From Peloplasma aerotolerans (GTDB taxonomy: Bacteria; Bacillota_I; Bacilli_A; Acholeplasmatales; Acholeplasmataceae), in assembly GCF_030012175.1 (NCBI RefSeq), contig NZ_JASCXW010000001.1:124001-188000 (forward strand): a stretch of DNA of 64,000 bases, in the 5' to 3' direction. A program made the translations under genes and the position numbers. The notes under the pieces are model-generated. The model was not told the DNA's origin, ran no database searches, and saw only the letters and a program-made list of their open reading frames with translations. This document shows, one piece after another, positions 9,207 to 57,350 of the stretch (positions are counted from its first letter, which is position 1; every line of letters begins with the position of its first letter).

Positions 9207-9218
9207 CTTAAACACTTC

Positions 9219-39746: not shown

Positions 39747-39862
39747 GCGTGGAGTTTATCTGATTGCTCGAAAATATGTCGGTTCGTGTATGTCGGAAAC
39801 ATATTTTTGGCTATTTTATGTTCCCCTATTCCAGACTTTTTCCAGTGAGGGAACATATTCTT
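39747..39862. repeat. Dispersed repeat, distal segment, copy 1
   Basis: Starts GCGTGGAGTTTATCTGATTG and includes TATGTTCCC (39817-39825) facing GGGAACATA (39849-39857). The same about 115 bp, without indels and mostly identical, occurs at 45,472-45,587. The 9-bp inverted arms are intact in both. Confidence 0.85.
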
Positions 39863-39925
39863 CGATAATAATCGATTGTTTTTGATTTATTCGGTGTTCA
39901 ACTTTATTATGTAAAAATACTTTTA

Positions 39926-40528
39926 TTAAAACGAAACAATAGCTATTTCTTTATCGATACTAATTATTTCGTCCCTGTTAAAAAAATTACTTTTCACAAC
40001 AACATGGACATGCGATTCATCAATCAAAGTATATTCGAAAATGATTGAGTTTTCAATTGTTTGAGGTTTACCATAATAGTAGTGTTTCCAAGTAATCATG
40101 GTAGCTTTCTCGATTCTCACACCTTTTTGACCCCAATCAATCCCAACTGGATTCTCAACAATACACTCTTCACCACCATTAAATTGAAATTTGATAGTTT
40201 TTTGATCAACATCTATTTTTTTGCTTTTCAATTCATATGCATTATCATAGGGTCTTCCTGGACCATCTCCCCAAATGCAAAAGGAAACATAATTACTTGT
40301 ATTTTCTACAAGATTTTGGTTTTTTATTTTTAATCTTTTTTTTCTATATATTTTAACTGTTAATCTATCTATGAAGAATAATAACAAGATAATAAGGCAA
40401 AGTGTAACAACTCCAACTATTGTATCCTTCAACCAATTGTCGATTACCTCACCATGTCCAAGCATTGCAGAAAACAACAGCATTACACACCTTAATGCAT
40501 ATACAATAAAATCTAGTATTTTATCCAT
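39926..40528 (-). CDS. Membrane protein of unknown function
   Basis: 200 residues from the ATG at 40528 (AAAGGAAC upstream); an in-frame ATG at 40558 lacks a good site. Two membrane helices lie in the first 65 residues, then a basic linker and a beta-rich cytoplasmic domain (VSFCIWGDGPGRPYD, VGIDWGQKGVRIEKATMITWKHYY). I do not recognise the family. It is one of three similar small two-helix proteins in a row (with 40,652 and 41,280), each preceded by its own ribosome-binding site, in the accessory island. Confidence 0.7.
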   Translation of the reverse strand: MDKILDFIVYALRCVMLLFSAMLGHGEVIDNWLKDTIVGVVTLCLIILLLFFIDRLTVKIYRKKRLKIKNQNLVENTSNYVSFCIWGDGPGRPYDNAYELKSKKIDVDQKTIKFQFNGGEECIVENPVGIDWGQKGVRIEKATMITWKHYYYGKPQTIENSIIFEYTLIDESHVHVVVKSNFFNRDEIISIDKEIAIVSF

Positions 40529-40651
40529 CTTCTTGTTCCTTTCAAATAAGTAGCTCACCTAGTCTTTTTAATAATGGTAGACTACTCTCTAGATGATATC
40601 GAGACAATTCATAAATTGAAATGCAAGTTTATCATAGTTACAATGCACTTG

Positions 40652-41173
40652 CTAGTTTTTATTTCCTTGAACTCGCAACATAAGATGATTATAGATTTCT
40701 TCCGCTTTATCTGTTTGAACTATTGCTGTTCTCGAATCATTCATATATATGTATATCAAATCGGATGCAACTTTATCAATTTTCTTTATAGCATAATATT
40801 CATACAAGACATTTGACTTTGAATACTTTGTAACTGTTTCAATTGTTATTGTGTCGGCATTTAGTGTAAAAGAAGATTTAACAGGTAACCCCACTCTATT
40901 AATTAATATACTCTTCCTTATTTTTGATATGCGAGTCTGAACCAACGCAGTAAGTGATAAAGCAGAAAACGCAGAAAAGAAAACCCCCGCATACAAGGTA
41001 TGAATGTTATCTGGTCCCACGATATCTAAGATAATTAAAAATGCTGATAATAAGGTGAGTAGAAAAAAGTATATTAATAATCTCTTTCTCTTTAGATCTA
41101 TAATATGCTTACTCAATTGAACCAACATTTCATCTGTATATACAACGTCAAATTTATAGTCATTATACTCCAT
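40652..41173 (-). CDS. Two-helix YcxB-like membrane protein
   Basis: 173 residues. A short cytoplasmic N-terminus, two membrane helices (about 30-75), then a soluble domain with a PH/YcxB-like strand pattern (FTLNADTITIETVTKYSKSNVLYEYYAIKKIDKVASDLIYIYMNDSRTAIV). YcxB-like proteins are common accessory genes of unknown role. GGAGG precedes the ATG. It sits in an array of similarly built small genes with separate gaps of about 100 bp rather than overlaps. Confidence 0.72.
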   Translation of the reverse strand: MEYNDYKFDVVYTDEMLVQLSKHIIDLKRKRLLIYFFLLTLLSAFLIILDIVGPDNIHTLYAGVFFSAFSALSLTALVQTRISKIRKSILINRVGLPVKSSFTLNADTITIETVTKYSKSNVLYEYYAIKKIDKVASDLIYIYMNDSRTAIVQTDKAEEIYNHLMLRVQGNKN

Positions 41174-41279
41174 ATTTTATTCCTCCAAATGTCTGAATTA
41201 GGTCATTCGCGAATTGTTCAATGTTTTTACTATAGTATATTGTTACCATTACATACTTCATAATTCATATTTTAATACA

Positions 41280-41753
41280 TCAGACTGGATATTTCATTAA
41301 GTCTTTGTATTTTTTAGGCAGTCTTTCAAAGTCTTTGTACTTAAGGCGAATGAAATATGGTCCTTTTTTGCTATTGTGTTTTTTGATGTTTATCCTTAAA
41401 AATCCTGGAAATAAATATGAACTTGACCCAGCGGTGCTTGTTAGATAATTAAATAGTGAAGGTTTTATATAATCAATATCACTTATACTATTGAAATCAA
41501 TAAATATTTCGTTTTTTCTCTTTACGGCATTAATACCTTTAATTTCAAACTCTGCTTCATAAATATATAGCAATCCATATAACAACATCAATAATCCAAA
41601 TAGTGTGCCACTTGCACCGAAAATAATCGAAATAATTGCTATTTCTGGATATTTGTCATAATAAATCAGTGCGTCAATAACACCAAATAACAAGAGTAAT
41701 CCAAAAGGTACTAAAAATAAAACAAATTCAGGTTTTTTATACTTGATATCCAT
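41280..41753 (-). CDS. Two-helix membrane protein with PH-like domain
   Basis: 157 residues from the ATG at 41753. AAGGAG lies nine bases upstream; a TTG one codon further upstream extends the frame and is less likely. Two membrane helices (about 9-65) are followed by a small beta domain (EFEIKGINAVKRKNEIFIDFNSISDIDYIKPSLFN). Layout resembles the protein at 40,652, with clear sequence differences. Family not recognised; accessory context suggests immunity or stress function only weakly. Confidence 0.7.
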   Translation of the reverse strand: MDIKYKKPEFVLFLVPFGLLLLFGVIDALIYYDKYPEIAIISIIFGASGTLFGLLMLLYGLLYIYEAEFEIKGINAVKRKNEIFIDFNSISDIDYIKPSLFNYLTSTAGSSSYLFPGFLRINIKKHNSKKGPYFIRLKYKDFERLPKKYKDLMKYPV

Positions 41754-41849
41754 CAATAACTGCTCCTTGTATAGTTTTTAATATACTTTTTATATATTAA
41801 TAAATTCAAGTTAAACAATATATTTTGTGTTTAGCTCTGTGAAAAATTA

Positions 41850-42794
41850 CTACTTCGTCCAAATTATATTAGGATCATCTTTTCCAAGTTCTAGATCTGA
41901 CAATAACACTCTCTTGCCTGTGTAATTAGAGTCATGATATGCTACATACTTTTTTGGCAGATCTTTATCTATCAAATTATAATTTGAGTAGAATTTGAAG
42001 ACTTCTGCATGCTTTGATTTTAATAGTGGTTTTAAATTCCCGTCCTCTATTTTGAAGTTACATATATATTCATCTATTTTTGTTGAGTTCACGAATTCCA
42101 AATTTGGTAATTTTATAGGTGCCATTGAATGCGAGTTTACAATAAATACATTTGTCAATTCCTTAAGATCATTTAAAAAATCGAAATTTATGACTTTATT
42201 GCATTCCATTACACGTAGAGCTTTCAAAGTTTTAGATAATGACGAGATAGATTCGATGTCTTTTAGCTTGGTACAATAGTCTAATGAAACTAGATTTAAA
42301 CTAGTGAGATTTTCGATACCTTCGATTGATACTAACTTTGAGGAGTTATCAATATAGAGTTCTCTTAGTTGAATGAAAGATTTTAAAGGCAATAAATTCT
42401 TAAAGCCAAATCCTTGAAAATATACACTCACGAGTGATTTAGGAAAATTAAAGTTTGACAATACATCATCTTCAATGATGTGTAAATGCTCTAGGTTAAT
42501 CAAATGACTGATGTCAATCTTATTTAGAGCACTCGAAAAAAGTTTTAGTGCTTTTAAGTGTGTTAGTTGAACTATTACATCAATGTTCTCTACATCTCTC
42601 GGTAAGGATGCATAGTACAAATCAGGAACATCGGGCAAATAGCTAACATCATTGTCTTGTGATATAACACCTTTAGCATGTTGAATGATATAATTATCAA
42701 TGTTACGTTTTTTAGTTAAAGGACTATAGCAGTCATCGATAACAATACAATTATCCTCAAAAAATCTAATTTTATCAAAACTATTTGTTTGCAT
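41850..42794 (-). CDS. Leucine-rich-repeat protein of unknown function
   Basis: 314 residues, cytoplasmic, no signal peptide. Repeats of about 22 residues of the type LTHLKALKLFSSALNKIDISHLINLEHLHIIEDDVLSNF, then LREL, LNLVSLDYC and LKALRVMECNKV blocks, from about residue 80 to 235. It resembles the cytosolic LRR proteins often found near toxin-immunity genes, but I cannot assign it. It overlaps the truncated HEPN-like frame by 14 bp and has AGGAGAG upstream. Confidence 0.75.
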   Translation of the reverse strand: MQTNSFDKIRFFEDNCIVIDDCYSPLTKKRNIDNYIIQHAKGVISQDNDVSYLPDVPDLYYASLPRDVENIDVIVQLTHLKALKLFSSALNKIDISHLINLEHLHIIEDDVLSNFNFPKSLVSVYFQGFGFKNLLPLKSFIQLRELYIDNSSKLVSIEGIENLTSLNLVSLDYCTKLKDIESISSLSKTLKALRVMECNKVINFDFLNDLKELTNVFIVNSHSMAPIKLPNLEFVNSTKIDEYICNFKIEDGNLKPLLKSKHAEVFKFYSNYNLIDKDLPKKYVAYHDSNYTGKRVLLSDLELGKDDPNIIWTK

Positions 42795-43077
42795 AGTTCT
42801 CTCCTAGTTTAAAATACGCTTTCGATGGAATTGTGTCCACAAACCCAGGATCATCCTTATCATTCTTTGCTCTATTTAATTCATTAATGATAAAAGCCTT
42901 ATAGAATGGATTTATAAGAATTGATAAGTTAATGACATTTGCTGTTAAGCTATCACTAATTATATTATCCACGATGCACTCATCAAAGTCTTCATAAACA
43001 AATAACATTCTGTGGTGACTTACGGCATTTCTTAGTCCTCTAACTGCACGAAGATTAATTGCTCTGCTACGACTTTC
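42781..43077 (-). pseudogene. 5'-truncated HEPN/Abi-like protein fragment
   Basis: Only the C-terminal part remains: the minus-strand frame is open right to the end of the IS3 element at 43,078 and continues LESRSRAINLRAVRGLRNAV, then SHHRMLFVYEDF, down to GENYANK. The RNAVSH (R-x4-H) motif followed by a second His and hydrophobics is the signature of HEPN RNases, especially the Abi_2/AbiF group (typically RNxxxHHxRL). A short ATG frame begins at 43008 but is probably not a native start. The IS insertion or a deletion removed the N-terminal part. Function is inferred from one motif. Confidence 0.6.
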
Positions 43078-43171
43078 TAGGACACATGCCCCCCCTTTAG
43101 GTCTAAAAAATAGGACATGTAACTATCTTTGTTACTTATATTTTATCATAACTAGTTATGCTTGATGCACT

Positions 43172-44059
43172 TTACTTAAATCCTTCAATAGTTCTATATT
43201 CTACTGGGGTAAGATAATCAAGTTTCCAAGCTGGTCTATTGTTATTGAAGTAATTGATGTATAGCTCTATTGCTGTTTTTATGTCTGTAAAATCATGTAT
43301 TTTCAAATTGTGTTTCAACTCCGCTTTGATCCATCCATTTAAAGATTCAATAACTGGATTATCAGTAGGCGTAGCTGCTCTACTCATACTTCTAGTAATT
43401 GGATATGTTTTATGTGTTTTTTCAAACTTGCTTGATGCATATACAATGCCTTGATCACTATGAAGAATGGTATGCTTATCTTTATATCCTCTACTCTCTT
43501 TAATACGAAGAAAGTCTTTTAGACTTCTTAAATGATTCATAACGCCATTACAGTGCTTGTAACTTGCTACATCAGATCCTACAATTTCATTATTATAGAC
43601 ATCTACATGATAATTCCAATCATATTTTACTCCCTTATGAATGATCATTGTCGTATCACTACACACTTTCTCAAAGGGTCCTTTAGTAGACCAATCACCT
43701 TTGATGATATTAGGATACTTATCAGAGATTCCCTTTGGTCTTCTAAAGGCTTTCCTGCGTGCTTTACTTGATATGCCCAACTCTTTAAAACATTGATACA
43801 TCAGGTAATATGAGACAATCCAACCTGTATCAGTAAAAATATCCTTTTTTATTGCTCTATATCCTTTAGCTGGATACATGTCGTGATAATTCATAATGAT
43901 TGATTTTAAGTAGTCTTTTGTTTCTTGTCTTTGTGTTTTATGTGATTTTCTGCTTAGCCATCTATAGTATCCGCTTCTTGTAACTCCTATATATCTACAT
44001 AGCTCATTGATATAGAATTTAGATCTGAATTTATGAACCAGACTGTATTCATCATTCAT
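43172..44059 (-). CDS. IS3-family transposase OrfB (copy A)
   Basis: 295 residues. An N-terminal helix-turn-helix_21 region (YYRWLSR) is followed by the rve integrase core with the DDE triad: first Asp in KVCSDTTMI, second in ILHSDQGIVY, Glu in NPVIESLNGWIKAEL. The frame is intact, so the enzyme could be active. The ATG overlaps the orfA stop (ATGA), and an A-rich run (AAAAAAAAAG) precedes it, the usual site for a -1 frameshift that yields the OrfAB fusion. Confidence 0.92.
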   Translation of the reverse strand: MNDEYSLVHKFRSKFYINELCRYIGVTRSGYYRWLSRKSHKTQRQETKDYLKSIIMNYHDMYPAKGYRAIKKDIFTDTGWIVSYYLMYQCFKELGISSKARRKAFRRPKGISDKYPNIIKGDWSTKGPFEKVCSDTTMIIHKGVKYDWNYHVDVYNNEIVGSDVASYKHCNGVMNHLRSLKDFLRIKESRGYKDKHTILHSDQGIVYASSKFEKTHKTYPITRSMSRAATPTDNPVIESLNGWIKAELKHNLKIHDFTDIKTAIELYINYFNNNRPAWKLDYLTPVEYRTIEGFK

Positions 44060-44376
44060 GATTTCTTTTTTTTTATGTATTTTACATCTTCACTATTATA
44101 GCCTCTTTTTAAACGCTCAATTTCTATTCTTAAAAGGAGTATCTCATGCTTTAGTGTCTCCACTTGATCTACTTCATGATCAGTATATAGTTTATCCCTA
44201 ATCTTTCTTTTACTGACAAGTCCACTTACACCCTCTGTCTCATAATTACTTACCCAGTCTCTTTGTGTTTTCCTAGCCACTTTATATGTTCTTTCTATTT
44301 CGTGCTTACTTATATTTTCATTAAGAATCATCTTTACTATTTTTAGCTTAAAGTCTACACTGTACTGATTAACCAC
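44056..44376 (-). CDS. IS3-family OrfA helix-turn-helix protein (copy A)
   Basis: 106 residues. A DNA-binding helix-turn-helix (SVDFKLKIVKMILNENISKHEIERTYKVARKTQRDW), followed by a leucine-zipper-like coiled coil (VETLKHEILLLRIEIERLKR). The start is GTG 44376 with AAAGGAG eight bases upstream. It ends in an A-rich slip region overlapping orfB by 4 bp. OrfA alone usually regulates; the OrfAB fusion transposes. Confidence 0.9.
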   Translation of the reverse strand: MVNQYSVDFKLKIVKMILNENISKHEIERTYKVARKTQRDWVSNYETEGVSGLVSKRKIRDKLYTDHEVDQVETLKHEILLLRIEIERLKRGYNSEDVKYIKKKKS

Positions 44377-44440
44377 ACTATCAACTCCTTTGTATTATTA
44401 TACTATATTTAATACCTTCAGGGAGGGGGAACGTGTCCCA

Positions 44441-45224
44441 CTTATTCATAGCAGTGCAGAACCTGGCTAAGTACAATGTAACCTATCCTTTCTCAGCATT
44501 TATCGTTTGCTCAGAGTGTGGGCGAACCTTGAAAAGACGCTATTGGAACTACGGTACACCAGCTCAAAGAGTCATGCAGCAATGTGGTGGTTACATCGAC
44601 GGTAAAGCTCACTGCAAGGCTAAAGCAACATACCAAGAGATGATTGAAGGTGCGACTGTGAAAATGCTAAACGAGGTGTTTTTACAGGAAAAGGACATCA
44701 TCCCAAATATACAGAAGATCATCAAATCAACCATACGAGTTAGTGATGTTGAAATCAAGATTCAAAAACTTCAAGCACAAGGCGATGAGATTGAAAGAAT
44801 GATATCAAACCTCATTGATGTTCAAGTGAAGAATCCTAATCTTTCCCAGGAGGATTTCAACAGCAAATACCAATCATTGACTTTGCAGCTTCACAATAAT
44901 AAAACCGAGATCAGAAAGCTTGAGGGTGAGTACTTAAAAAACTACGATACACGTTCAAGACTTGCAAAGATTGAAACCACACTCAACAATTTACTAGAAC
45001 CCATCCAGGAAGTTGATAGTGACACCTTACGCTCATTCATTTACAAGATCATCTCAGTAACACCTGAAAACATTGTCTTCTGTGTAGCAGGAACAAAGAA
45101 CTATACCGATAAAGAATTCTCAGAAAATAGACATGCTTTTGAAGCATTAAAACCTTTAGCAACAGGTACTTATCACAACGAAAAGTACGATAAGATTATG
45201 AATTATAAGGTCGTTATTATCTAA
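44441..45224 (+). pseudogene. 5'-truncated large serine recombinase (zinc-ribbon and coiled-coil part)
   Basis: Open frame directly abutting the IS3 right end. It starts FIAVQNLAKYNV, then YPFSAFIVCSECGRTLKRRYWN, the recombinase zinc beta ribbon (C-x2-C, then CGGYIDGKAHCKAK), and the typical long coiled coil (EIKIQKLQAQGDEIERMISNL) plus the C-terminal cap. The catalytic N-terminal resolvase domain and the DNA-binding recombinase domain are missing; they are not on the other side of the IS. The GTG at 44,433 lies in the IS end, so translation from it would be accidental. A strong terminator hairpin follows within a repeat copy. Confidence 0.85.
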
Positions 45225-45238
45225 TTTTTTTTGAAGTA

Positions 45239-45592
45239 AAATATGTTGCGTAAGACAACCATTCGGACAAAAAAGGCCATTTTTCACCAAAAAATATGTT
45301 CCCACAATGGACGAAATTTGCACATATAGACAAAAAAAGCCATCGGATACCTTTGAAGGTCATCTGATGGCTGATTTTTATTGAGTTGGGTTAAAAATAG
45401 AGTGTTGTCAAGTATGTGTCAAGTATATAACAAGTGCTATTTTAATGAAAGCAACGTGATAGACTCTACATGCGTGGAGTATATCTGATTGCTCGAAAAA
45501 ATGTCGTTGCATGTACGTCGGAGACATATTTTTAGGCATTTTATGTTCCCCCATTCCAGACTTTTTCCAGTGTGGGAACATATTGCACTTGA
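45239..45592. repeat. Dispersed recombinase-associated repeat, fullest copy
   Basis: The proximal segment (45239-45476) is nearly identical to 47803-48037 and begins AAATATGTTGCGTAAGACAAC. It holds TATGTTCCCACAATGG (45295-45310), a terminator hairpin, and direct copies of TGTCAAGTAT around 45406-45428. The distal segment (45472-45592) matches 39747-39862 and has TATGTTCCC (45542-45550) facing GGGAACATA (45574-45582). Confidence 0.85.
45338..45380. terminator. Strong hairpin terminator downstream of the recombinase fragment
   Basis: AGCCATCGGAT pairs with ATCTGATGGCT (one G-T pair) and an inner CCTT / AAGG helix; an A run precedes it and a T-rich run follows. Also present, slightly diverged, at 47903-47933. 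Confidence 0.8.
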
Positions 45593-45742
45593 AAACCTAT
45601 CTAGACTCGTGCTAGGTCGTCATTGATACGCTAAAGCATACGATAACTTCTAATTGTTTGATAACTAACGTCATTCCTTGTTGTTAATTCTATACATGAA
45701 TCCGTGATATAACATTGAACTTTCGACTAACGATAATTCATT

Positions 45743-46210
45743 TCACTTCTTCAGGATGTATGAAACATCAAAATCCCAATGCATGAAATCATGAATAATT
45801 TCAACTTTAGAGTTCTCTACAGTGTTGCATAAGTCATATAACTTTGAAAAATCATGATCGTTTTTTGTATAAATACATATTTCAGTAGTGTCAGCAACCT
45901 GGATTGCAAATCTTGTGTTGCTATTCATTAAATCTTCCATACTTCTGATGGGAGTACTTGGTTGAGTCATGGAGACATAAGTTGTCAAGAAAAATACCAC
46001 TAATTGTTCATAATTATCATCAATAAACTTTTTCATGTCGCTTGTTAAAATTACTTCTTTATGAATTTGTATAAGACTGGAAAGATTTGGTCTCAAACAC
46101 CAGTCGTTATATGCTCTAAAATCCCAATACATCTCACCATCAAATGCGTTTACTGTGATATTTAATAACTTATATATTTCTTCTGAACTCACGTATATAA
46201 TTTTCATCAT
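45743..46210 (-). CDS. Small cytoplasmic protein of unknown function
   Basis: 155 residues, no signal or membrane segment. A tyrosine/tryptophan-rich N-terminus (MYWDFRAYNDW) and an acidic middle are visible; family not recognised. AGAGG precedes a double ATG. It lies alone between repeat copies in the accessory island, with no overlap to neighbours. The compact acidic build is compatible with an immunity protein but does not demonstrate one. Confidence 0.65.
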   Translation of the reverse strand: MMKIIYVSSEEIYKLLNITVNAFDGEMYWDFRAYNDWCLRPNLSSLIQIHKEVILTSDMKKFIDDNYEQLVVFFLTTYVSMTQPSTPIRSMEDLMNSNTRFAIQVADTTEICIYTKNDHDFSKLYDLCNTVENSKVEIIHDFMHWDFDVSYILKK

Positions 46211-46364
46211 TTATCCTCTCTGGTCTCATTATAGAAAACCAATAAAAATATTTTTCCCCTATATATCTTAGAATTCAAAGTCCATCGATACACTTATTAG
46301 CAACTGAATAATTTCAAATTTCTTAATAAATTCACGCAGTCAAAAGTGTAAACAAAATAGATTT

Positions 46365-47669
46365 TTAGTGCTTCAAACAACCTATGGGTATAATCTTAAT
46401 TCCATCTTCTCTTGTGTATGCCATTTCACCACCTGTTATAATCATCAATAATTCTGGATCTTTTAATTTTTGAGAGTTTCTAGTTTCATTTGCTTTTCTA
46501 ATAAGATCAACCACTTCAAGAAGATGTTTTGCTGCTTCTTCTATTTGCTTTGTTCCCAACTTAAACTCTATCAATGCGAATCTTCCATCATTTAAATGTA
46601 GTACTGCATCGACTTCAAGATTCATTCGATCTCTATAATATGATAAACTTCCTCCAAGTGACGTTGCATAAACCTTTAAGTCCCTTACACATAAGTTTTC
46701 AAACATAAAGCCAAAAGTTTCAAAATCTTGTAACAACATTTGAGGTGAGACGCCGAGAGCAGCAGCTGCTATTGATGGGTCAATGAACATTCGTTTATTC
46801 GAACTTCTGATGGAGGTTTTTGAGCGAATTGATGGATTCCATGCTGGTATATCTTCAATTACATAAAGCTTGTTCAGTGCGTTAACATATTCATAATATG
46901 CAGATTCAGACAGGTTTGTGTTTGAATTAACATCGTCAATGATGGTTTTATTCGATGAGATTGTGCCTATGTTTCTTGCATATGATCTAAGTAAATATTG
47001 AACTTTTAATGGTTCTCTTTTTTTACCATCAACTGTAGAAATATCTATTTGGATAATGTTATCTAAATATGATTTAGCTACAAGTAGTTTAGCAGCATCT
47101 GTTTTTTTAGTTAAACTCGATGGCCAACCACCTCTACAAGTTGCAAAAATCAAGTTTTCAATGGTTAAATTTGATTTTAAGCCATCAATATTGTAATTTT
47201 TGTCGTTAAACAATTGTTTTAATGATATTATACCATTCGACTCCTTAGACTCGAATAAGCTCATTGGATACATCTTCAAACGAGCGATTCTACCCGTTCC
47301 AGTATGCATGATTTTCGACTCATCAACAACTGTTGATCCTGTTAATATGTATAGCCCTTCATCCCTCACATTATCAACTGACGTTCTAATCGCATCCCAT
47401 AACACAGGTGCCATCTGCCACTCATCAATTAATCGAGGTTTATCACCCTCAAGTAGTAGTGAGGGTTTTGTTTGTGCAGTTAATAAATAACCCTGAGATT
47501 TGTCTGGATCCTGTAGTTTCAAAATACTTTTTGCCTTCATGGATGCGCTTGTTGTTTTACCGCACCACTTTGGCCCTGTAATAAGTACAGCACCAAAAGC
47601 CTCAAGATAGGATTCAAGTTCACTATCAATGTTTCGAACAAGGTATATTGTATTCAAGATATCACTCAC
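46365..47669 (-). CDS. AAA ATPase with DUF4143-type C-terminal nuclease-like domain
   Basis: 434 residues. Walker A GPKWCGKTTSA near 33, Walker B RLIDEWQM near 78, arginine-containing sensor region LTGSTV near 113. The second half is the DUF4143 domain, ending LEVDAVLHLNDGRFALIEFKLG (about 350-375), whose Asp and Glu-x-Lys resemble a PD-(D/E)xK nuclease core. Common scattered accessory ATPases; the biological role is unknown. The GTG start at 47,669 is weakly supported; TTG twelve bases downstream is possible. It stands alone between two repeat copies. Confidence 0.88.
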   Translation of the reverse strand: MSDILNTIYLVRNIDSELESYLEAFGAVLITGPKWCGKTTSASMKAKSILKLQDPDKSQGYLLTAQTKPSLLLEGDKPRLIDEWQMAPVLWDAIRTSVDNVRDEGLYILTGSTVVDESKIMHTGTGRIARLKMYPMSLFESKESNGIISLKQLFNDKNYNIDGLKSNLTIENLIFATCRGGWPSSLTKKTDAAKLLVAKSYLDNIIQIDISTVDGKKREPLKVQYLLRSYARNIGTISSNKTIIDDVNSNTNLSESAYYEYVNALNKLYVIEDIPAWNPSIRSKTSIRSSNKRMFIDPSIAAAALGVSPQMLLQDFETFGFMFENLCVRDLKVYATSLGGSLSYYRDRMNLEVDAVLHLNDGRFALIEFKLGTKQIEEAAKHLLEVVDLIRKANETRNSQKLKDPELLMIITGGEMAYTREDGIKIIPIGCLKH

Positions 47670-48754: not shown

Positions 48755-49183
48755 TTATATATATATTACGGCATCAACACCATACATGAGTGCATCATTC
48801 CATTTTTCAAAATCTATTTGCGATAGTTTCTCCTCAGTTGTTCCAAAAGCTTGAATTTCAAATTCTTCTAGCACGTTTATTGAACATGTGTGCAGAACGG
48901 GTTGACCTGATTCAAACAACTTGATCATCATTCCGTTTTTTGAGAAACCATAGCCATATTCGCCCCATTTAGAATCCATGCCTTTGATAAAACCTGGAAC
49001 ATTCTTCTTCAGTGCGCGAAATATATTGAATCCGACGAGCATTGTAGACTCAGGGAGTTTTAATGGATCTCTAAATCCCGGCATCAATTTAGCCATTCTT
49101 TCAGAAGAACTTAATGAGTCCTTATTTCTATCATCTCGATGAGCTATTGTTGAATCTTGATATTGAAATTTTAAATTTATCAT
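48755..49183 (-). CDS. Small protein of unknown function
   Basis: 142 residues, cytoplasmic. A strand-rich pattern with FKYQ-like N-terminus and later SINVLEEFEIQAFGTTEEKLSQIDFEKW and DAVIYI is seen. I do not recognise the family. AGAGGG precedes the start. It begins 9 bp after the Sel1-type gene stop, so those two are probably translated from one message. Accessory-island context; function unknown. Confidence 0.66.
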   Translation of the reverse strand: MINLKFQYQDSTIAHRDDRNKDSLSSSERMAKLMPGFRDPLKLPESTMLVGFNIFRALKKNVPGFIKGMDSKWGEYGYGFSKNGMMIKLFESGQPVLHTCSINVLEEFEIQAFGTTEEKLSQIDFEKWNDALMYGVDAVIYI

Positions 49184-49192
49184 TTTTGCCCT

Positions 49193-49669: not shown

Positions 49670-49753
49670 CGATACATTACCTCTTTCTAAAAAAATCTTC
49701 TAGCACACAAATTGAATACTACTCACTTTTCGTTTTATTTTCGATCTGGTCTT

Positions 49754-50134
49754 TTAACCTTGTTGAAATCTTACAGTATAATCAAGAACATTTTTATACT
49801 CACGAATAGTGCTATATTTTTCACTTAGGAGAGCAAATGAACTAAGTGGTAAATTGGTAAAATTATTGAGATTAGTTTCTGTGATAGACGCATAAATCAC
49901 TTTACACTCTGGGCAAGTAAATAAATTGAATAAACTATATGTCTGTCCTTTGAATACAGTATTTGCTCCTCTAACCCTCATTTTATATAGGACTGAATTA
50001 TAGCATATTGGACATTCATAGGAAGATATATAATAGGCGGGTGAATAAGATAATACCTCATCAAACTGCATAAGATTTTTACTTGTATTTTTTATAGCAT
50101 TTTGTAAACTTTGTTTCCAACTTATATCAATCAT
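49754..50134 (-). CDS. Small protein with two CxxC pairs (zinc-ribbon-like)
   Basis: 126 residues from the ATG at 50134; the GGAGG upstream is farther away than usual (about 12 bases), and an in-frame ATG 11 codons further upstream also exists. Two pairs, CPIC near residue 43 and CPEC near 76, suggest a zinc ribbon. Family not recognised. Part of the run of small genes in the island. Confidence 0.6.
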   Translation of the reverse strand: MIDISWKQSLQNAIKNTSKNLMQFDEVLSYSPAYYISSYECPICYNSVLYKMRVRGANTVFKGQTYSLFNLFTCPECKVIYASITETNLNNFTNLPLSSFALLSEKYSTIREYKNVLDYTVRFQQG

Positions 50135-50230
50135 TGTTTTTAATAACCTCCAATGTATTTTTATCAATAATACTAGTTATATTAGGCAATTTAATAAATT
50201 CTTATGTAAAACAAAAATCTTGAAATTAAA

Positions 50231-50542
50231 TCAATAATATATTCTCAGCTGTGATTTAAGCTCAGATTTGGAAGGAACCCCAACAAAACTATCAACTGGT
50301 CGGCTATTCTTAAATAGCACTACTGTTGGTAATCCAGTTAAACCCACTTCATTTTCTAAGTATCTATGTTCACGATAAGATACTTTTACAAAATCAACAC
50401 TTGAAAATTCTTTCGAAACATCTTCAATCAAAGCAAGTAATTCTCTACAAGGGAGATTCACATCTCTCGCATGAACTATGACAACTGTATCTCCAACAAT
50501 GTCATCAAAACTAAACCTATTTCCCCGAAACTCCCTAACCAT
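50231..50542 (-). CDS. Divergent thioredoxin-like protein
   Basis: 103 residues with the thioredoxin fold order: DTVVIVHARDVNLPCRELLALIEDVSKEF, VDFVKVSYREHRYLENEVGLTGLPTVVLFKNSRPVDSFVG. The cis-Pro loop (TGLPTVVLF) is conserved but the active site reads NLPCRE where WCGPC is expected: only one Cys remains. It may therefore not act as a dithiol oxidoreductase. AAAGGAG precedes the start. It sits in the accessory gene run. Confidence 0.8.
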   Translation of the reverse strand: MVREFRGNRFSFDDIVGDTVVIVHARDVNLPCRELLALIEDVSKEFSSVDFVKVSYREHRYLENEVGLTGLPTVVLFKNSRPVDSFVGVPSKSELKSQLRIYY

Positions 50543-50675
50543 ATTTTATGTCTCCTTTAATCAACACAATTCCTTAATTTTTGTAATGTAGGTATACTCG
50601 TGTCCGTGTTTCTTTGATTAACAAAATATAAGTGCTTGGTGATTTGAAACCACACTTATCTATGCTAAAAATCCC

Positions 50676-50960
50676 CTAGATTGGAAGATTAGCTACATAA
50701 TATGTTTTGTCTAAAGATGGACCGAATCTTTTCTCATTTAAATATTTAGTCATCTTAGGGGTATTTTCTCCATTATTGCATGTGCCAATCCAAACACCTT
50801 TAGATGCATCAAATAACCCTGCCCCCATCCCTTGTGCTGACAATTTTATTACTTTTTTGTACTTCATCTTTGCTTGAAATTTACTTTCAATAGGATAATC
50901 CAGTAAACACTCGATACTAAATCTACCTTGATTATAATTTAATCCATAAATGTGATACAT
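50676..50960 (-). CDS. Small protein of unknown function
   Basis: 94 residues from the ATG at 50960, preceded by GGGAGG; an in-frame TTG four codons upstream lies within that site. Beta-rich, with a Gly-rich middle (SAQGMGAGLFDASKGVWIGTCNNGENTP). Not recognised. First gene (in transcription order) of the small-gene run, 190 bp beyond the end of the second IS3 element. Confidence 0.62.
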   Translation of the reverse strand: MYHIYGLNYNQGRFSIECLLDYPIESKFQAKMKYKKVIKLSAQGMGAGLFDASKGVWIGTCNNGENTPKMTKYLNEKRFGPSLDKTYYVANLPI

Positions 50961-51201
50961 ATTTCCTCCCAAAAATTGTGTCTATATATTATATATTAGC
51001 ACAAAAAATATACTGATGAAAGCGCTTTTTTGATATTGGATTAAATTATCTCTGATCATTTATGATTTTATATATGAGAGTATTTAAAACCAAGTTGTTT
51101 AAGTGAGGTTAATATAAAACCAAACCTTAAATAATAAAAGCCACACAACTGAATTGATACCATTTTCTTGTACTTTATGTTCTTTGTAGTTATTGTATCA
51201 T

Positions 51202-52050
51202 TTATTGATTCATGAGTCTATATTGTATAGGAGAATATCCTCCTAATGTCAACTTAATTCTTTCGTGATTATACCAATAGATATATTCATCGATTGTTCG
51301 AATCAAATCTGCTAATGATTTAACCTTTTGTAAATAGATTGTTTCACACTTAAGTGTTCCGAAGAAGCTTTCAACCACTGCATTATCATAAGCGTTACCT
51401 TTAGCACTCATAGATTGCACAAATGATGATTTTTTTAGGTAGTTACGATATTTAGGGGATTGATATAGAATACCTTGATCAGAATGAATGAGTAGCTTCG
51501 ATAAATCCTCATTTGAATTGATTGCCTTCTTAAGTGTTCTAAGAATCAAATCCTGGTTTTGACTTCTAGAGATTTGATAACCTTTGACCTCACCATTATA
51601 AAGATCTTGAATGACCGATAAATATAAACGTTTACGATTAAATCTAAATTCCGATACATCTGTGACCCATGCGATATTAGGATCATCCTTCTTAAAGTCT
51701 CTTTTGAGTAGGTTTGGTGTAATTTTATTGGATATTTGAGAGATATAGCGATATCTCTTTTTTCTTACCTTACAAACGATATGTAGCTCTTTCATGAGCT
51801 TTACAACAGTCTTATATGCTATTTTAATCTGATAGAAGTTCTGAAGAGCGAGTTTAATACGTCTATAGCCATATGTACGATTACTCGCTTCAAATATTTC
51901 TGATATCAGTATCTTGATATCATGATATTTATCAGTCTCTTTGTGGTGTTCATAATAGTAATAAACAGACCTAGGCAGACCAGATATCTCAAGTAGATCT
52001 TTTAATGCATATTTTCGCCTTAATTCTTTGACTACTTGGTATTTTTGTTT
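51202..52050 (-). CDS. IS3-family transposase OrfB (copy B)
   Basis: The frame is open for about 283 codons and continues upstream past the orfA stop, in the -1 frame (KQKYQVVKELRRKYALKDLL at its start). It has no ATG at its head; the ATG at 51,795 is internal. Triad: Asp in WVTDVSEFRF, Asp in LIHSDQGILY, Glu in NAVVESFFGTLK. Expression must come from frameshifting on the A-rich ACAAACAAAAAT stretch before the orfA stop. Frame and triad are intact, so the element may be active. Confidence 0.9.
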   Translation of the reverse strand, partial: KQKYQVVKELRRKYALKDLLEISGLPRSVYYYYEHHKETDKYHDIKILISEIFEASNRTYGYRRIKLALQNFYQIKIAYKTVVKLMKELHIVCKVRKKRYRYISQISNKITPNLLKRDFKKDDPNIAWVTDVSEFRFNRKRLYLSVIQDLYNGEVKGYQISRSQNQDLILRTLKKAINSNEDLSKLLIHSDQGILYQSPKYRNYLKKSSFVQSMSAKGNAYDNAVVESFFGTLKCETIYLQKVKSLADLIRTIDEYIYWYNHERIKLTLGGYSPIQYRLMNQ

Positions 52051-52406
52051 GTTCGTTCCTGTTTTTGAACTAAGGCGATAAGTTTTTTTGTATATTCAAG
52101 TTCCATTTCTAGATGTTTGACTTTCAATTCTAAATCTTGTTCTACCTCTTTAGATGGTTTATGGAACTGTCTAACTGGATTCTTACGATAGTCTTTAGGT
52201 GTTTGAAAAAAACGCTCTTTCCCATAGAGCCTATACTGATATACCCATCTCGCAGGCAATGTATCATTTAAACTCCCTGATGTTAAATACATATCGTATT
52301 TTCGTGCTGCTTGACTATAAGAAAGTTCATTTTCAATGATATCTAAAACCACTTTAAGTTTGAATTCTCCGCTCCATAGTCTATTCTTTTTCTTCTTATC
52401 TTTCAT
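52032..52406 (-). CDS. IS3-family OrfA helix-turn-helix protein (copy B)
   Basis: 124 residues. Helix-turn-helix (SGEFKLKVVLDIIENELSYSQAARKYDMY) followed by a lysine-rich leucine-zipper-like coiled coil (EVEQDLELKVKHLEMELEYTKKLIALV). AGGAGGT precedes the ATG. The stop overlaps the -1 orfB frame. Confidence 0.88.
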   Translation of the reverse strand: MKDKKKKNRLWSGEFKLKVVLDIIENELSYSQAARKYDMYLTSGSLNDTLPARWVYQYRLYGKERFFQTPKDYRKNPVRQFHKPSKEVEQDLELKVKHLEMELEYTKKLIALVQKQERTNKNTK

Positions 52407-52465
52407 TAGATACCTCCTGCATATATCCTAGTTTACACTAAGTACAGGTTTTTGGTATCAGTTCA

Positions 52466-52764
52466 AAAAATGATATTAAGAGACTCACAAGATTAAGAAA
52501 TAGAACCATGTATAGTATTAATAAAGATATACTGCCATTTAAGAATTAATAATAGTTTGAGTTTTGACAAGTTACAAAAGTGCAAGAGTCAGTCCAATAG
52601 TATTGTATCTGCAAATGCAAAATTTTAAGAAGTAGTCATATAAGAATCCTATGAATTTTTCACAAGCTAGAAAAAATAAACTCATTCTATGGAATAAAAA
52701 AAGTTAAATCACCTGATCCAGATGATTTAGCTCTTTATAATTTGAACCATTATAAATTGAAAAT
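52466..52764. other. Gap after IS3 copy B
   Basis: About 300 bp. Apart from the terminator of the next gene at 52694-52731 I see no gene or structure. Confidence 0.5.
52694..52731 (-). terminator. Terminator of the small membrane protein gene
   Basis: On the minus strand, TAAATCA pairs with TGATTTA around a loop, followed by a run of seven T residues after an AAC spacer, 34 bp after the 52,765 stop. Confidence 0.75.
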
Positions 52765-52959
52765 TTAATTTGGTAAATCAACAAAATCAAAAATATCATT
52801 TAAAACAAAAATAGCAACCATGACAATGTAAACAATGAAAACTACTTTCCAATTCACCTGTTTTTCTTCTTTATATAACACTTTTTGGTGGATTAACATT
52901 AATGGTATTAAAATTAGTCCTAGTAAACTATATTTAATGATAGATGATATAATCTCCAT
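52765..52959 (-). CDS. Small two-helix membrane protein
   Basis: 64 residues: helix 1 (about 4-24), a short charged loop (HQKVLYKEEKQVNWK), helix 2 (about 38-56), then DIFDFVDLPN. GAGGTAGAG precedes the ATG and a terminator follows, so it is likely a real gene. No recognised family. Isolated between IS3 copy B and the FN3 remnant. Confidence 0.65.
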   Translation of the reverse strand: MEIISSIIKYSLLGLILIPLMLIHQKVLYKEEKQVNWKVVFIVYIVMVAIFVLNDIFDFVDLPN

Positions 52960-53093
52960 AATCTCTACCTCTTTTCAGTTTTGCACTACAATATATATAT
53001 GTATTTGATTTAAAATATATTTTCTTTCTTTTAGGATTGTCAACAATGCATTTCAATCTATATTAAAATATAGATTGAAACCTCATTTCCAAC

Positions 53094-53750
53094 TTAACAA
53101 CTGCCACCTAATGTCTTGATTGTTAGTGATGAAACACTCGTAAGATCATTATCGTTATCATCCTTAAATACGGCATAAAAAGTGTAAAAGGCACCAGATT
53201 CCAAACCATTGAACGACACAATATAAGAGTCTTGACTATATAAAGAAGTTATATAGATGTCTGGTGAGGAATCGTTTAACTCAGCAAACAACATTAATGC
53301 ATCGGTGGAACTGCTAACATTGGTAACTAAGAAATTAACATATGTGTATCCCTTCGATAAAATATCTATTTTAGGTTTTTCATGGAATCTTGTATTGGTT
53401 GTTACATCTATATAAACAGTGTAGCTAGATAAACCGTTTCTATCATCTTCAAACTTAGCAAAAAATGTATAATCTGTATTTGGATATAAGTTATGAAAAG
53501 TATAATCTATAAAATCACCTGTTTCAACCACACCAACATTTAAATTAGGTGTAGAATCAGATATATCCATTAAAAGTTTAAGCGGTCCAACATTATCTAT
53601 CGGATTAAAGACTCTAAATGTTATCGAATTTTCTGTTACATTATTAATAGAAATGTTTGGGCTCTGAATGGGGTAATTATAGTCAAGCGAATACGTACCA
53701 ACTGCTTGATCAAGTTCAGTAAAATCACCTATTTTTATACAATTGCGCAC
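53094..53750 (-). pseudogene. FN3-like surface protein remnant
   Basis: 218 codons encoding two beta-sandwich domains of fibronectin-III type (VTENSITFRVFNPIDNVGPLK and YVNFLVTNVSSSTDALMLFAELND, each followed by a LYPNTDYTF / LESGAFYTFYAVF-like strand). No signal peptide or anchor exists and the apparent start (GTG) lies inside the 53,745 tandem array, so the 5' part of a larger surface protein is probably missing. It ends TLGGSC. It follows the LRR lipoprotein and the WapA-like gene on the same strand. Confidence 0.6.
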
Positions 53751-53813
53751 CCTATAGAAAAGTTACGCACCCCTAGCGAGATTTTACGCACTCTTACCCC
53801 TATTTTTACGCAC
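53745..53813. repeat. Tandem array of GCACC units with 20-22 bp period
   Basis: GCGCAC at 53745 and ACGCAC at 53765, 53786 and 53808, each preceded by T/A-rich sequence such as TTTTACGCAC. Spacing grows by one base each time (20, 21, 22). The core resembles the array at 48,268 (TTTAGCACCC) in the same orientation. Confidence 0.75.
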
Positions 53814-53866
53814 CACTATAAAAATGGCTTAACAAAGAGAAGTGTTTGAAGTACTGCTGAATTCGC

Positions 53867-54970
53867 TCAATCATTCGAATTAATAAACTCAAATGTAATT
53901 TCTGGAAAATCATTATGAATAGATTTGGCAATATCCAATGATGTTTCAATTGCATATTGGAGTTCAGCGGATTCTGTCATATTTTGAGGAAGAACTATTT
54001 GAATTGGAGACGTGTTTTGATACCCATACCGAAATGTGAAATAAACAAATAGGTTTGTAAAATCGACTAGATTCTCTTCACTTAGTTTAAAACTTGCAAA
54101 TTTTATGGAGTTGATTTTATTATAATTGTTTGATGCATTTAGTGAGTTACTGAATGCTGAATAGTGCAAATATGATAGGTTGGAAGGCAATATAATCGAT
54201 TCAATATTAGAGTCGGAAAAGACGTTAGCTTCTAAAACATTAAGATTTGCTGGCAATATGAGTTCAGTTGGTGGATTTGATTTGTAATATGCTGCTTCTC
54301 CTATGATTTCGACAGACTGTGGAATGTTTATATAAGTTGATTTAGTCTCAAAGAATGCCCCTGATTCAATTGTTTCAATAGAGTTTGAAAGAATAATTGA
54401 AGAAAAAGTTGTATACATGAATGCAGAGTGTCCTATTATTGTAATGTAATCAGGTATTCTATAAACAGCATCATAATTTCTTGTATTATATACATAAATC
54501 AGTTCTGATTGATCTTTTGTTATAATTGATAAATATCCATTAATTGTTCTTTCCATTAAATATGTGTGGTCTGCCGGGATAATAAAACTCGTTTCCTTAT
54601 AACGACCAAAAGCTGGGGCGAAATATTTTAAGTTTTTAGGTATCCTAAACTGAGTTAATTTCAATGATTCCAGACTAAATCGCTCTAGTTCAAGAATTGA
54701 GTCCGGAAGAGTAATAGATTCAATTTCTAAATCTAAATTCCTAAATGCATGAGCATCAACTCTAGTCACTGGTAAACCATTATGTGTTTCTGCAATGACG
54801 ATGTTTTCTGAAGTACCAGTATACCCAACAATTGTATATTCGTCTTTACCTTCGATTTTCTCAAAGACAACCCCTTCAGTTGTAACTACTTTATTATCCT
54901 GGCAAGATATTAAAATCAGCACCATTATTAGTGCAAAAAATATACATATGGTAGCATTTAATGATTTCAT
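53867..54970 (-). CDS. BspA-type leucine-rich-repeat lipoprotein
   Basis: 367 residues from ATG 54970 (AGGAGG seven bases upstream). The signal peptide ends in a lipobox LILISC with Cys near 23. After a short linker come LRR_5 units: VTRVDAHAFRNL, ITLPDSILELERFSL, FRIPKNLKYFAPAF, ITIIGHSAFMYTTFSSIILSNSIETIESGAFFETKSTYINIPQSVEIIGEAAYY. Extracellular surface lipoproteins of this type mediate adhesion or protein contacts. It overlaps nothing but lies 12 bp after the WapA-like gene, so both are probably one operon. Confidence 0.87.
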   Translation of the reverse strand: MKSLNATICIFFALIMVLILISCQDNKVVTTEGVVFEKIEGKDEYTIVGYTGTSENIVIAETHNGLPVTRVDAHAFRNLDLEIESITLPDSILELERFSLESLKLTQFRIPKNLKYFAPAFGRYKETSFIIPADHTYLMERTINGYLSIITKDQSELIYVYNTRNYDAVYRIPDYITIIGHSAFMYTTFSSIILSNSIETIESGAFFETKSTYINIPQSVEIIGEAAYYKSNPPTELILPANLNVLEANVFSDSNIESIILPSNLSYLHYSAFSNSLNASNNYNKINSIKFASFKLSEENLVDFTNLFVYFTFRYGYQNTSPIQIVLPQNMTESAELQYAIETSLDIAKSIHNDFPEITFEFINSND

Positions 54971-54981
54971 CGTCATTCCTC

Positions 54982-56781
54982 CTATGTTTGAATTTTTATA
55001 GCAAGATACAAAATATCTCCATAATAAACATCATATGGCTCTTGCCCTGGTGGATTTTGCAGACACCATATTACATGAACTGGATTTACACGTTGTGGTG
55101 CAAAAAAACTAGATGGTGTCATGGTAAATTTGTCAAACCAACCTTCATTAAAATTTCTTCTAATAAAATGGTAATCACTACCAAACCATGAGGATGGATT
55201 ATACCCTGTTCGCATCCCAATTATATATTCATTAGCGTCTATAGTTTCATCATAACTTGAAAGTCTCCGATAATCGATACCTAGATAATCTAAATCATTT
55301 TCTACTCTCTCACGTATAGTTTCAACATGAGTGTATGTTGAATCTTGAGTGCCAGAAAAATATCCTGGACTAATATTAGCATTTATACCTAGGGCAAATG
55401 CATAACAATTGAGATATGTTCGAGTATCAGGGACATACCATTCACCTAGATTGATTTCTATTGAAGGTTGATATGTACTACTGGAATAATTACTCGCATA
55501 AAATCTTGTAGAATATCTAACGAATGGCTGTCTAGGATATAATCTCAAAGTGAGGCTTTCTTCTAACATGTTATGTTTGTAAATTTCATTATCAATGTTG
55601 AATTCATAGAATGAACCAGAACCAGATAATACGTCAATATCTAGGTAATCATAATCTGATATTCCATTCATTGAATCATAACTTAATGGATCTGATATAT
55701 CTTGAACTAAAATACCACTTGTTGGAGTTTGGTTTTCCTTAATATGTAGTTTTAACTTGATATCATCTATCGAAGTATAACTGGAATTATTATATATACT
55801 CATTATGTTATCATATATGTCTTTTGCGTTCAATTCAATTAAACTAAAAACTAATGTTTCAGTTTGTGGTTCTACAAAATAAAGGTCATCATACTGCACA
55901 CGGAAGTAAGAATTATCTGTACAAGAGGCTGAACCCACATAACAATATTTATCTCTCATGAATTGATTTGTTGTATTCATTTTGAAATTAACAATTGGAT
56001 CAATAATAACAGGATATTCTCTATCTGAATCCATCAGCCATTTTTGATTCGGTTTAACTTGGAAACGATAAAATCCTTTAAAGACTTCTTCAAAGGTTAC
56101 AGTGACATCGTCAGAATAGACTTCATTACTATCAAACATGAAGTAAGGCTCAAATTCAAAAATGATTTCACCTTGAGGATTAATGAAGATTAAAGATGCG
56201 TCTTCGAGAGATACCATTGACAAATTATTCAAAATTAAATAATAGTCAACTTTGAAATCCTCTACATATTCACTTAAGACAAAACTTTCTTTTAACTGTG
56301 TAGGTGATAAATCTAGTACTAAATCAGTATTACTCTTAATATTGTTGTATGTCAATTGGCTTTGAGCTTTTTCTATCCCTTTAGACCCTAAGTCATTCGA
56401 TACAGAAAAATTAGACTCTATACTATTTGGGTAATAAAACTTAATACTTGAGTCTTGATGTTGAACTTCAATCAAGTTTCCTTTAGCAAGTGTTTCAGGA
56501 AGACTAACTTGATAATTCGAATTTTTAGTTTGATAAGTATTCTTATTCTTATTCTTAACCAGAGACATATCAATGTCATTATACTTACCATTTTCAAAAA
56601 AGTGAACATCATGATTATATAATACCATTTTTCCGCTACCATCATCTGTCTGAAATGTTTTTGAATTCGCAGTGCGTAATTCTATCATCTCACTACTTAT
56701 GAGCTCTGAAGCGCTAGAATTCATTTGAGATAAAAAGCCAATACATGTGAATAACAGAAAAAATAAAATAATCCTTTTCAT
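54982..56781 (-). CDS. Secreted WapA-like protein with C-terminal Cys/His domain
   Basis: 599 residues from ATG 56781. Signal peptide (MKRIILFFLLFTCIGFLSQ). The N-terminal region has the SKTFQTDDGSGKMVLYNHDVHFFENGKYNDIDMSL block found at the start of Rhs/WapA-like proteins; the middle (YPVIIDPIVNF and a later DNRLRE-like beta domain) also fits. No YD repeats exist. The C-terminal 130 residues have NCYAFALGINANISPGYFSG and later GSDYHFIRRNFNEGWFDKF, a Cys...His pair (about 459 and 538) resembling NlpC/P60-like or papain-fold domains. It could be a cell-wall enzyme or a toxin; neither is shown. Confidence 0.8.
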   Translation of the reverse strand: MKRIILFFLLFTCIGFLSQMNSSASELISSEMIELRTANSKTFQTDDGSGKMVLYNHDVHFFENGKYNDIDMSLVKNKNKNTYQTKNSNYQVSLPETLAKGNLIEVQHQDSSIKFYYPNSIESNFSVSNDLGSKGIEKAQSQLTYNNIKSNTDLVLDLSPTQLKESFVLSEYVEDFKVDYYLILNNLSMVSLEDASLIFINPQGEIIFEFEPYFMFDSNEVYSDDVTVTFEEVFKGFYRFQVKPNQKWLMDSDREYPVIIDPIVNFKMNTTNQFMRDKYCYVGSASCTDNSYFRVQYDDLYFVEPQTETLVFSLIELNAKDIYDNIMSIYNNSSYTSIDDIKLKLHIKENQTPTSGILVQDISDPLSYDSMNGISDYDYLDIDVLSGSGSFYEFNIDNEIYKHNMLEESLTLRLYPRQPFVRYSTRFYASNYSSSTYQPSIEINLGEWYVPDTRTYLNCYAFALGINANISPGYFSGTQDSTYTHVETIRERVENDLDYLGIDYRRLSSYDETIDANEYIIGMRTGYNPSSWFGSDYHFIRRNFNEGWFDKFTMTPSSFFAPQRVNPVHVIWCLQNPPGQEPYDVYYGDILYLAIKIQT

Positions 56782-57185
56782 CAGTATCCTTTTTTGACTG
56801 ATCATAATTTATGGATATTTTTATGTCAAGTGATGATGTTTCCCCCATCGAATCAATCTTTATTTACATTATATATGTTTATCTATTTTTTTGCAACACA
56901 AAATTTGAATCAGATTCACGTAAAAAAATGGCTTGTCATTATGGACTTTATCACTGTTTTTGATAACCTCTATACTAACTTTACTATAAATGATGCTATA
57001 AGTTTATATTTTTTAAAAAATAAATAGCCTGCTATTTAGTGGATAAACCCTATACCATTGAATGTGAGAACATAAAGAACACTTGTGGCCTCAATAGAGA
57101 GATTATAATGATTTTTTAGTGTCAAAAAAAGTAGTAATACATGTTTACCCAAACAAACCTCGACTATCATTTTCAATCTATTTGA

Positions 57186-57350
57186 ACAAAAAATATGTTC
57201 CCACAATGAGAGTGAGATGTTCCCGCAATGGCCAAAAAATAAAAAAAAGGCAATATTTACACTTTGATATGTAGAATCACCTTTGATATCTATTATTAAA
57301 TGGCTTTGTTAGGCTGTTTTTAAAGAAAGCATTGCGATAGTTTCAACATG
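57186..57350. repeat. Dispersed repeat, degenerate copy D
   Basis: Begins ACAAAAAATATGTTCCCACA like the proximal segment, repeats an ATGTTCCCGCAATGG (57217-57231) nearby, and later has GAAAGCATTGCGATAG followed by CAACATG as in the intact copies. The terminator hairpin and direct repeats are lost. Confidence 0.65.

Follow-up and report, generated by a model that had tools for sequence, protein, structure and literature searches.

Just beyond the ssrA (tmRNA) gene of Peloplasma aerotolerans lies a genomic island with several copies of a repeat, IS3-family insertions and the remnant of a large serine recombinase (LSR). The window – the whole 64,000-nucleotide stretch analysed here (contig NZ_JASCXW010000001.1, positions 124,001 to 188,000) – contains this island in full, and the coordinates of its features are collected in Table 1. 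Comparison with relatives makes it very probable that a phage-encoded LSR uses the repeats as attachment (att) sites, and that they are the joints of a cassette array of the kind found at the gene rumA. In the closest relative (G004, 87–92% identity), window positions 39583 and 59544 are just 105 bp apart; the island therefore spans approximately 39584–59543, reaching past the end first assigned to it. An empty site, with those 105 bp replacing the island, exists in a relative; a clean empty attB at ssrA was not found in that genome, the 105-bp gap being without evident half-sites.

The first-pass annotation had described four copies of a dispersed repeat, and all four were recovered by sequence comparison or, in the case of the degenerate copy at 57192–57350, by nhmmer (E 9e-17): 45239–45500 and 47803–48062 are 88% identical across 262 bp, and 45471–45584 and 39746–39859 share 89% identity. 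Their reported confinement to the island holds in general, the exception being a single 30-bp remnant on contig C8, which adjoins another remnant of the same recombinase family as the window's. The sequence details noted earlier also stand: all seven exact window copies of the motif TATGTTCCC fall within the repeats (with at most one mismatch, 26 occur in the window, compared with 12.4 ± 3.3 in shuffled sequences), an inverted pair with 9-bp arms 23 bp apart is identical in two copies (39817–39857 and 45542–45582), and the terminator hairpin is there, as are the TGTCAAGTAT repeats. What that reading missed is that its ‘proximal’ part is one arm and its ‘distal’ part another, the two recombining at 45471–45472.

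This became apparent on aligning the window's copies with around 50 loci of relatives. A single 2-bp point – the TG at 45471–45472 – joins two independent arms, P (~230 bp) and P′ (~115 bp); among 67 cores in these loci, TG is found in nearly all, with P arms stopping and P′ arms starting there. The footprint expected of a serine integrase is a common dinucleotide at the centre of palindromic flanks, and the core indeed consists of a central dinucleotide between palindromic half-sites (GCAAnnnGATAnACTCnACn-TG-nGTnGAGTnTATCnnnTTGC), with attP unlike attB. The core is located 247 bp beyond the stop codon of the LSR gene. The repeats are therefore the two arms of one attachment site, and not one dispersed element but the chimeric joints of a cassette array: in the window, site A is P·P′, site B combines P with another P′ class, site C joins a target half-site to P′ and site D is a decayed P·P′. 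The arms also shuffle. Across 26 P·P′ sites, P-arm and P′-arm similarities are uncorrelated (r = −0.035, Mantel p = 0.68), and one P class is paired with five P′ classes. The main P class carries a strong bidirectional terminator hairpin, present in each full P arm, which would also suit dispersed terminators or REP-like repeats (repetitive extragenic palindromes) with no role in mobility; to this idea we give hardly any credence, given the sharp TG limits, the shuffling of arms, the joining to rumA and the transfer between species.

The identity of the target emerges from 14 P·B′ junctions in relatives, in which the P arm meets an opposite-strand gene of the RumA/RlmD family (PF05958) exactly at TG. 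The RumA proteins differ among hosts (28–45% identity to a reference RumA in most), those of occupied genes almost all end in the P-encoded tail HVESITLLSLK or a near variant, and rumA genes without an insertion have diverse tails. An in-frame rumA tail with its stop codon is kept in all P arms, even in the decayed site D. Because every P arm encodes a rumA C-terminus, the primary attB is the rumA 3′ end, and the P arm is a portable gene end. One half-site, ATGTTTCC, is supplied by the conserved Asp-Met-Phe codons of rumA, and the TG lies in the following His-Val codons. Particularly instructive is a locus in G017 (L076), where a 2.68-kb recombinase-free cassette sits between rumA and its displaced original tail (HVESIAYLTLKG, then a stop codon): the displaced tail is found at B·P′, the regenerated one at P·B′, and joining the flanks yields an uninterrupted 442-aa rumA frame. 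The neighbouring ssrA gene was considered as the LSR target and rejected, as the core lies 199 bp beyond it and the island contains no ssrA repeat, the ssrA end being single-copy in the window.

The recombinase beside the sites had been described as decapitated, rightly so: its open reading frame (ORF) has only a zinc ribbon and a coiled coil (PF13408). Intact relatives are 572 aa long and combine Resolvase, Recombinase and zinc-ribbon domains in one chain (PF00239, PF07508 and PF13408 in L031, 9050–10765). Homology to them begins at residue 318, with IS3 occupying the expected place of the N-terminus; the insertion has removed that part of the protein, including the catalytic domain. Upstream of the intact LSR gene there is an Xre-type helix–turn–helix (HTH) gene, in most cases together with a small ORF (87 aa in L031). 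No close intact LSR was found in the window's own genome; two adjacent LSRs on another of its contigs (L060, G000:C34, 8531–11717) are 36% and 28% identical to the rumA-type LSR. The best curated match of the latter, CcrB, brings to mind the staphylococcal/enterococcal cassette chromosome (SCC/ECC) family, which likewise targets the 3′ end of a gene for an rRNA methyltransferase and has tandem recombinase-less cassettes. Membership of that family is nevertheless very improbable and was rejected on its defining tests: CcrB scores 134.6 bits against a cut-off of 900 (CcrC 87.7/900, CcrA 70.1/700), the target is rumA and not rlmH, there is no TATCATAA core, and a single prophage-borne LSR is involved. 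The system is SCC-like in its working, yet not SCC.

The prophage origin is documented by an IMG/VR contig (G453/L188–L190) with an identical LSR at the end of a siphovirus-type prophage that has the terminase, portal, head, tail and tape-measure genes of a temperate phage. The same contig opens with a 62% identical LSR, followed by a P·P′ – DUF4143 cassette – P·P′ arrangement. The prophage of this 52-kb record also has a tyrosine integrase (L190, 6782–7702) beside the rumA-type LSR, and it encodes an AlwI-type restriction enzyme. Several relatives carry a conserved 7.4-kb cargo between the LSR gene and the full P arm (L031 10900–18313, L048, L056, L057 and L058), with glycosyltransferase, patatin, DegV and ABC genes in L031; in these cargo-bearing genomes a scarred P arm follows the LSR gene, and the cargo may represent a neighbouring cassette fused to the phage through loss of a core.

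Between the cores lie the cassettes, most of them without a recombinase of their own. Among 59 cassette ORFs in 15 units, 54 run against the P-to-P′ direction, i.e. in the same direction as rumA, and nine of the 15 units measure 2.1–3.0 kb with two or three ORFs each – an array of short, co-oriented cassettes, as in integrons. Judging by their predicted products, cassette genes are often of an immunity or toxin–antitoxin (TA) type, with a putative role in phage defence. Eight of the nine short cassettes carry a DUF4143 ATPase (the PADLOC candidate PDC-S01), Fic or AbiEii; in the five genomes concerned, the cassettes make up ~0.3% of the DNA and hold five of the 12 DUF4143 genes, two of these five DUF4143 cassettes being one cassette in two species. 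The L040 locus has, within a cassette, a gene for a 2,307-aa RHS-repeat protein (3352–10275).

The cassettes also behave as units between species. Blocks of 2.7–8.5 kb that are 97–99.97% identical, in species otherwise 73–80% alike, end at the cores. The 2.7-kb recombinase-free cassette of L076 is the sole occupant of rumA in G017 and forms part of an array in G012 (L041), with 2,686 bp in common at 97.1% identity and both ends within 1 bp of TG, whereas these genomes are 80% identical at ssrA. Similarly, G003 and G002 (L040/L048) share 8,548 bp at 99.97% identity up to TG, then continue into P′ and rumA respectively, and are 73% identical at ssrA. In L044, L052, L054, L055, L064 and L069, the common blocks begin exactly at the P′ core. 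Such core-bounded homology and arm shuffling are what site-specific exchange among divergent elements leaves behind. Of 101 close relatives, 33 have members of the family, which also occurs in several other families of the same class; the copies travel with relatives of the window's recombinase, in keeping with the earlier suggestion of a recombinase-borne mobile unit that left the repeats as its footprint. Blocks of up to ~10 kb starting at the P′ core are common to different genera (L044, L052, L053, L054, L055 and L064); that of L052 contains copper/heavy-metal P-type ATPase and two-component genes.

Could such arrays instead have arisen by decay, with tandem full phages or islands losing genes until only immobile short cassettes were left, and homologous recombination between the long arms mimicking mobility? 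Recombinase remnants do occur in some cassettes (cassette 1 of the window, L040 and L053), degenerate sites such as D exist, and the scarred P arm with phage cargo by the LSR fits fusion followed by deletion. We nevertheless regard this as a poor prospect: the 2.7-kb recombinase-free cassette stands alone in rumA of G017 with the displaced rumA tail on its other side, its G012 copy ends no more than 1 bp from TG, and neither the tight sizes (2.1–3.0 kb in 9/15) nor the single orientation would be expected under random deletion.

The motif singled out by the first-pass annotation can now be placed. AACATA is found exactly at +15 in all 14 rumA junctions, and among the 22 other junctions that are readable, 11 have TATGTT at −19, the mirror position (at most one mismatch; nine exact), giving an attB of the form TATGTT-N13-TG-N13-AACATA. 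The TATGTTCCC motif, TATGTT[CT][CA]C, is thus the attB half-site motif. The proposal that the inverted TATGTTCCC/GGGAACATA arrangement is an attachment or binding site was right in linking it to the recombinase, as a half-site of attB, but strand exchange takes place elsewhere, at a TG core 70–110 bp away. As a crossover site the inverted pair was rejected: breaks are all on the core, and no junction was found inside the pair (the insertions in L045 and L064 lie just past the P′ arm, outside it).

In the P′ arms, the motif recurs at +52 (reverse), +71/72 (forward) and +106/107 or +117/118 (reverse), the pairs spanning 41 (27 cases), 42 (5), 51 (8) or 52 bp (1); forward copies in P arms are spaced by 53/54 (16), 22 (5) or 84 bp (4). 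Among P′ arms less than 60% identical to each other, the motif columns are conserved at 85%, compared with 66% for the core half-site and 42% for the remainder. The TATGTT motifs of the arms are candidate extra LSR-binding sites; since no span equals the 40 of attB, the pairs should be silent in exchange. Alternatively, they could be operators for a regulator, for instance the Xre-type HTH protein encoded next to the LSR, or sites of a host architectural protein. Inverted pairs with spans of 41/42 or 51/52, one helical turn apart, resemble a dimer-binding or looping layout, and an HTH gene lies upstream of the intact LSR gene wherever the sequence suffices. This alternative is nonetheless unlikely, for four loci lack the motif in the 350 bp preceding the HTH gene, motifs of the TATGTTYCC type are confined to the neighbourhood of att sites in L030–L034, and their symmetric placement in the target, at −19 and +15, implies that the recombinase itself must read them there. 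The specific version in which they are operators of the HTH gene was rejected, its promoter being without the motif.

We favour the following scheme for the att sites and their cassettes. The phage attP is P·P′, in which P closely follows the integrase gene, and its recombination with the rumA attB (B·B′) would give B·P′ … P·B′ with rumA mended: an equivalent tail, borne on P together with a terminator, replaces the last ~11–13 rumA codons, so that the gene stays whole. A later circle entering at P·B′ would produce P·P2′ … P2·B′, so that the newest unit would always lie beside rumA and the internal joints would be chimeric, resulting in an array B·P′ – cassette – P·P′ – cassette – P·B′. The LSR itself would have made all junctions, and, as recombinase-free cassettes share the same sites, it would have to act in trans. 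The window's array has as its left half-site a secondary site other than rumA, common to G012 (L149), and it is probably stranded, because IS3 has cut the LSR and the genome is without a close intact one.

Several considerations weigh against this scheme. Strict serine integrases join attP with attB and usually refuse attR as a partner. The P·P′ junctions, however, require P·B′ (an attR) or another attP as partner, which is unusual; the LSR would need to be relaxed, perhaps via the arm sites or a directionality factor, or there would have to be another route to the use of attR. The window's array has a left half-site that is not from rumA, and no P·B′ can be recognised at its right end. Most of the genomes compared are metagenome assemblies; arrays are also present in single-contig genomes (G074, L053). 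Finally, the lack of correlation between arms could partly stem from homologous recombination within the repeats, although breaks at TG would not follow from it.

The scheme also has a more speculative extension, in which the system would be a serine-recombinase counterpart of integrons. It is possible, though doubtful, that a phage integrase has come to work on arms with several catalytically silent, helically phased attB-like half-sites. Equally tentatively, these accessory sites might make P·B′ and P·P′ acceptable to the enzyme as partners, and small immunity cassettes may – again with some hesitation – have been stacked, co-oriented, at a rumA end that repairs itself, with phages capturing them later.

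A few features of the window stand apart from the array. Matches to Rfam are limited to the tmRNA and to a thiamine pyrophosphate (TPP) riboswitch (RF00059, window 5577–5672, minus strand), the latter barely over its gathering score, and a search of the window for a further intact attB gave chance-level matches only. A 61-bp hairpin repeat (CCTGGTGGAA…TTCCACCAGG) at 39640–39700 recurs at several contig ends of G019 (C193, C278, C42, C212 and C188) and, in G010 (G010:C7), near an apparent transposase sequence; it is probably the end of another mobile element.

Table 1. Features of the island and its left neighbour (window coordinates)
Feature	Position	Strand	Basis or remark
ssrA (tmRNA) gene, left neighbour of the island	39208–39547	+	ARAGORN, Rfam RF00023
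Whole island	39584–59543	.	Comparison with closest relative; absent from G004 (105 bp there)
Cassette 1, 5.7 kb	39746–45472	+	Four small minus-strand genes, IS3, recombinase remnant
Cassette 2, 2.56 kb	45471–48034	+	No recombinase; DUF2691 (45743–46210) and DUF4143 ATPase (46365–47669), both minus
Cassette 3, 9.3 kb	48033–57350	+	Eleven ORFs, all minus, IS3 included
Site C, left half	39727–39745	+	attB-type half-site TATGTTTACACAATCTTTC (TATGTT at −19), same in G012 (L149)
Site C, P′ arm	39746–39860	+	Core TG 39746–39747; motifs 39795–39803, 39817–39825, 39849–39857
IS3-family transposase ORFs	43172–44376	−	NCBIfam NF033516
LSR C-terminal remnant	44433–45224	+	Homology from 44457, residues 318–572, 97% to intact 572-aa relatives
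Site A, P arm	45242–45472	+	TATGTT at 45242 and 45295, bidirectional terminator hairpin, rumA tail
Portable rumA C-terminus in P arm	45437–45472	−	HVESITLLSLK and stop codon
attP palindrome, 42 bp, imperfect	45451–45492	.	Sequence reading; 14/20 symmetric positions, central TG 45471–45472
Site A, P′ arm	45471–45585	+	AACATA-type ~+52, TATGTT +71, AACATA +106
Site B, P arm	47805–48034	+	rumA tail HVESIVLLSLK and stop codon
Site B, P′ arm	48033–48160	+	Other class (TGCGTTGAAAAAACC…, motif pair span 52)
Site D, decayed P arm	57192–57350	+	HVETIAMLSLKTA and stop codon still encoded
Site D, decayed P′	57349 to ~57405		After decayed P arm

These sites provide an exact att model – core, attP, attB and natural chimeric junctions – for an uncharacterised serine-integrase family, and make the tandem growth of serine-integrase islands, despite a supposedly one-way attP × attB reaction, an addressable question. 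They tie the accumulation of immunity-type genes to the attachment site of a phage, and recombinase-free cassettes of 2–3 kb have, as the core-bounded blocks show, passed from species to species as defined units. The conserved arms suggest an accessory binding of the recombinase, which is not known to us for the serine-integrase class. Integrons, too, form arrays of short co-oriented cassettes, rich in TA and immunity genes, with one recombinase serving many; they use the tyrosine recombinase IntI and folded single-strand attC sites, whereas the present system has a serine recombinase and P·P′ sites that are double-stranded, and the likeness is one of behaviour only. The cis-mobilisable elements (CIMEs) of the ICESt1 type are attL/attR units without a recombinase, formed by accretion and deletion, but with a tyrosine integrase at fda instead of an LSR at rumA.

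Comparable, too, are the ssrA islands of Dehalococcoides, which are associated with the serine recombinase DsiB and occur in tandem at one gene end, about half of them without an integration module; the recombinase-less ones have been proposed to be cis-mobilizable by accretion (PMC3146451). A CcrB-like serine recombinase, many tandem islands and recombinase-less members are common to both systems, but the Dehalococcoides islands have an ssrA target with a 20-bp repeat, a recombinase gene overlapping att and dehalogenase cargo, the vcr islands being ~12 kb in size (PMC3146451). Here, by contrast, a prophage integrase serves as the LSR and rumA as its target, cassettes go down to 2–3 kb or two genes, and the arms are long and structured. 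SCC/ECC elements share the use of LSRs, an rRNA methyltransferase 3′ end, ~50-bp inverted-repeat att sites and variable cargo, but use ccrAB/ccrC, rlmH and a different core (PMC6222049), and the LSR described here is far under the Ccr cut-offs. Streptococcal rumA integrative and conjugative elements (ICEs) and CTn5 of C. difficile likewise use a serine integrase to enter the 3′ part of rumA and exchange its C-terminus (PMC4701971), and the 14 P·B′ junctions show the same insertion into rumA by a single serine integrase. In those conjugative elements, att lies inside the integrase gene (PMC4701971), whereas here the core is ~247 bp after the stop codon, phages and cassettes are the carriers and arrays form; among the scanned proteins neither a relaxase nor VirB4 was noticed, with no search aimed at conjugation genes. 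Features of these known systems come together here in a phage-linked serine-recombinase array whose small cassettes share one orientation and whose arms are structured, and a literature search of partial coverage returned no report of such an array. Islands of a related kind have been described, but this one differs from them in its small, uniformly oriented immunity-type cassettes and in its att design.

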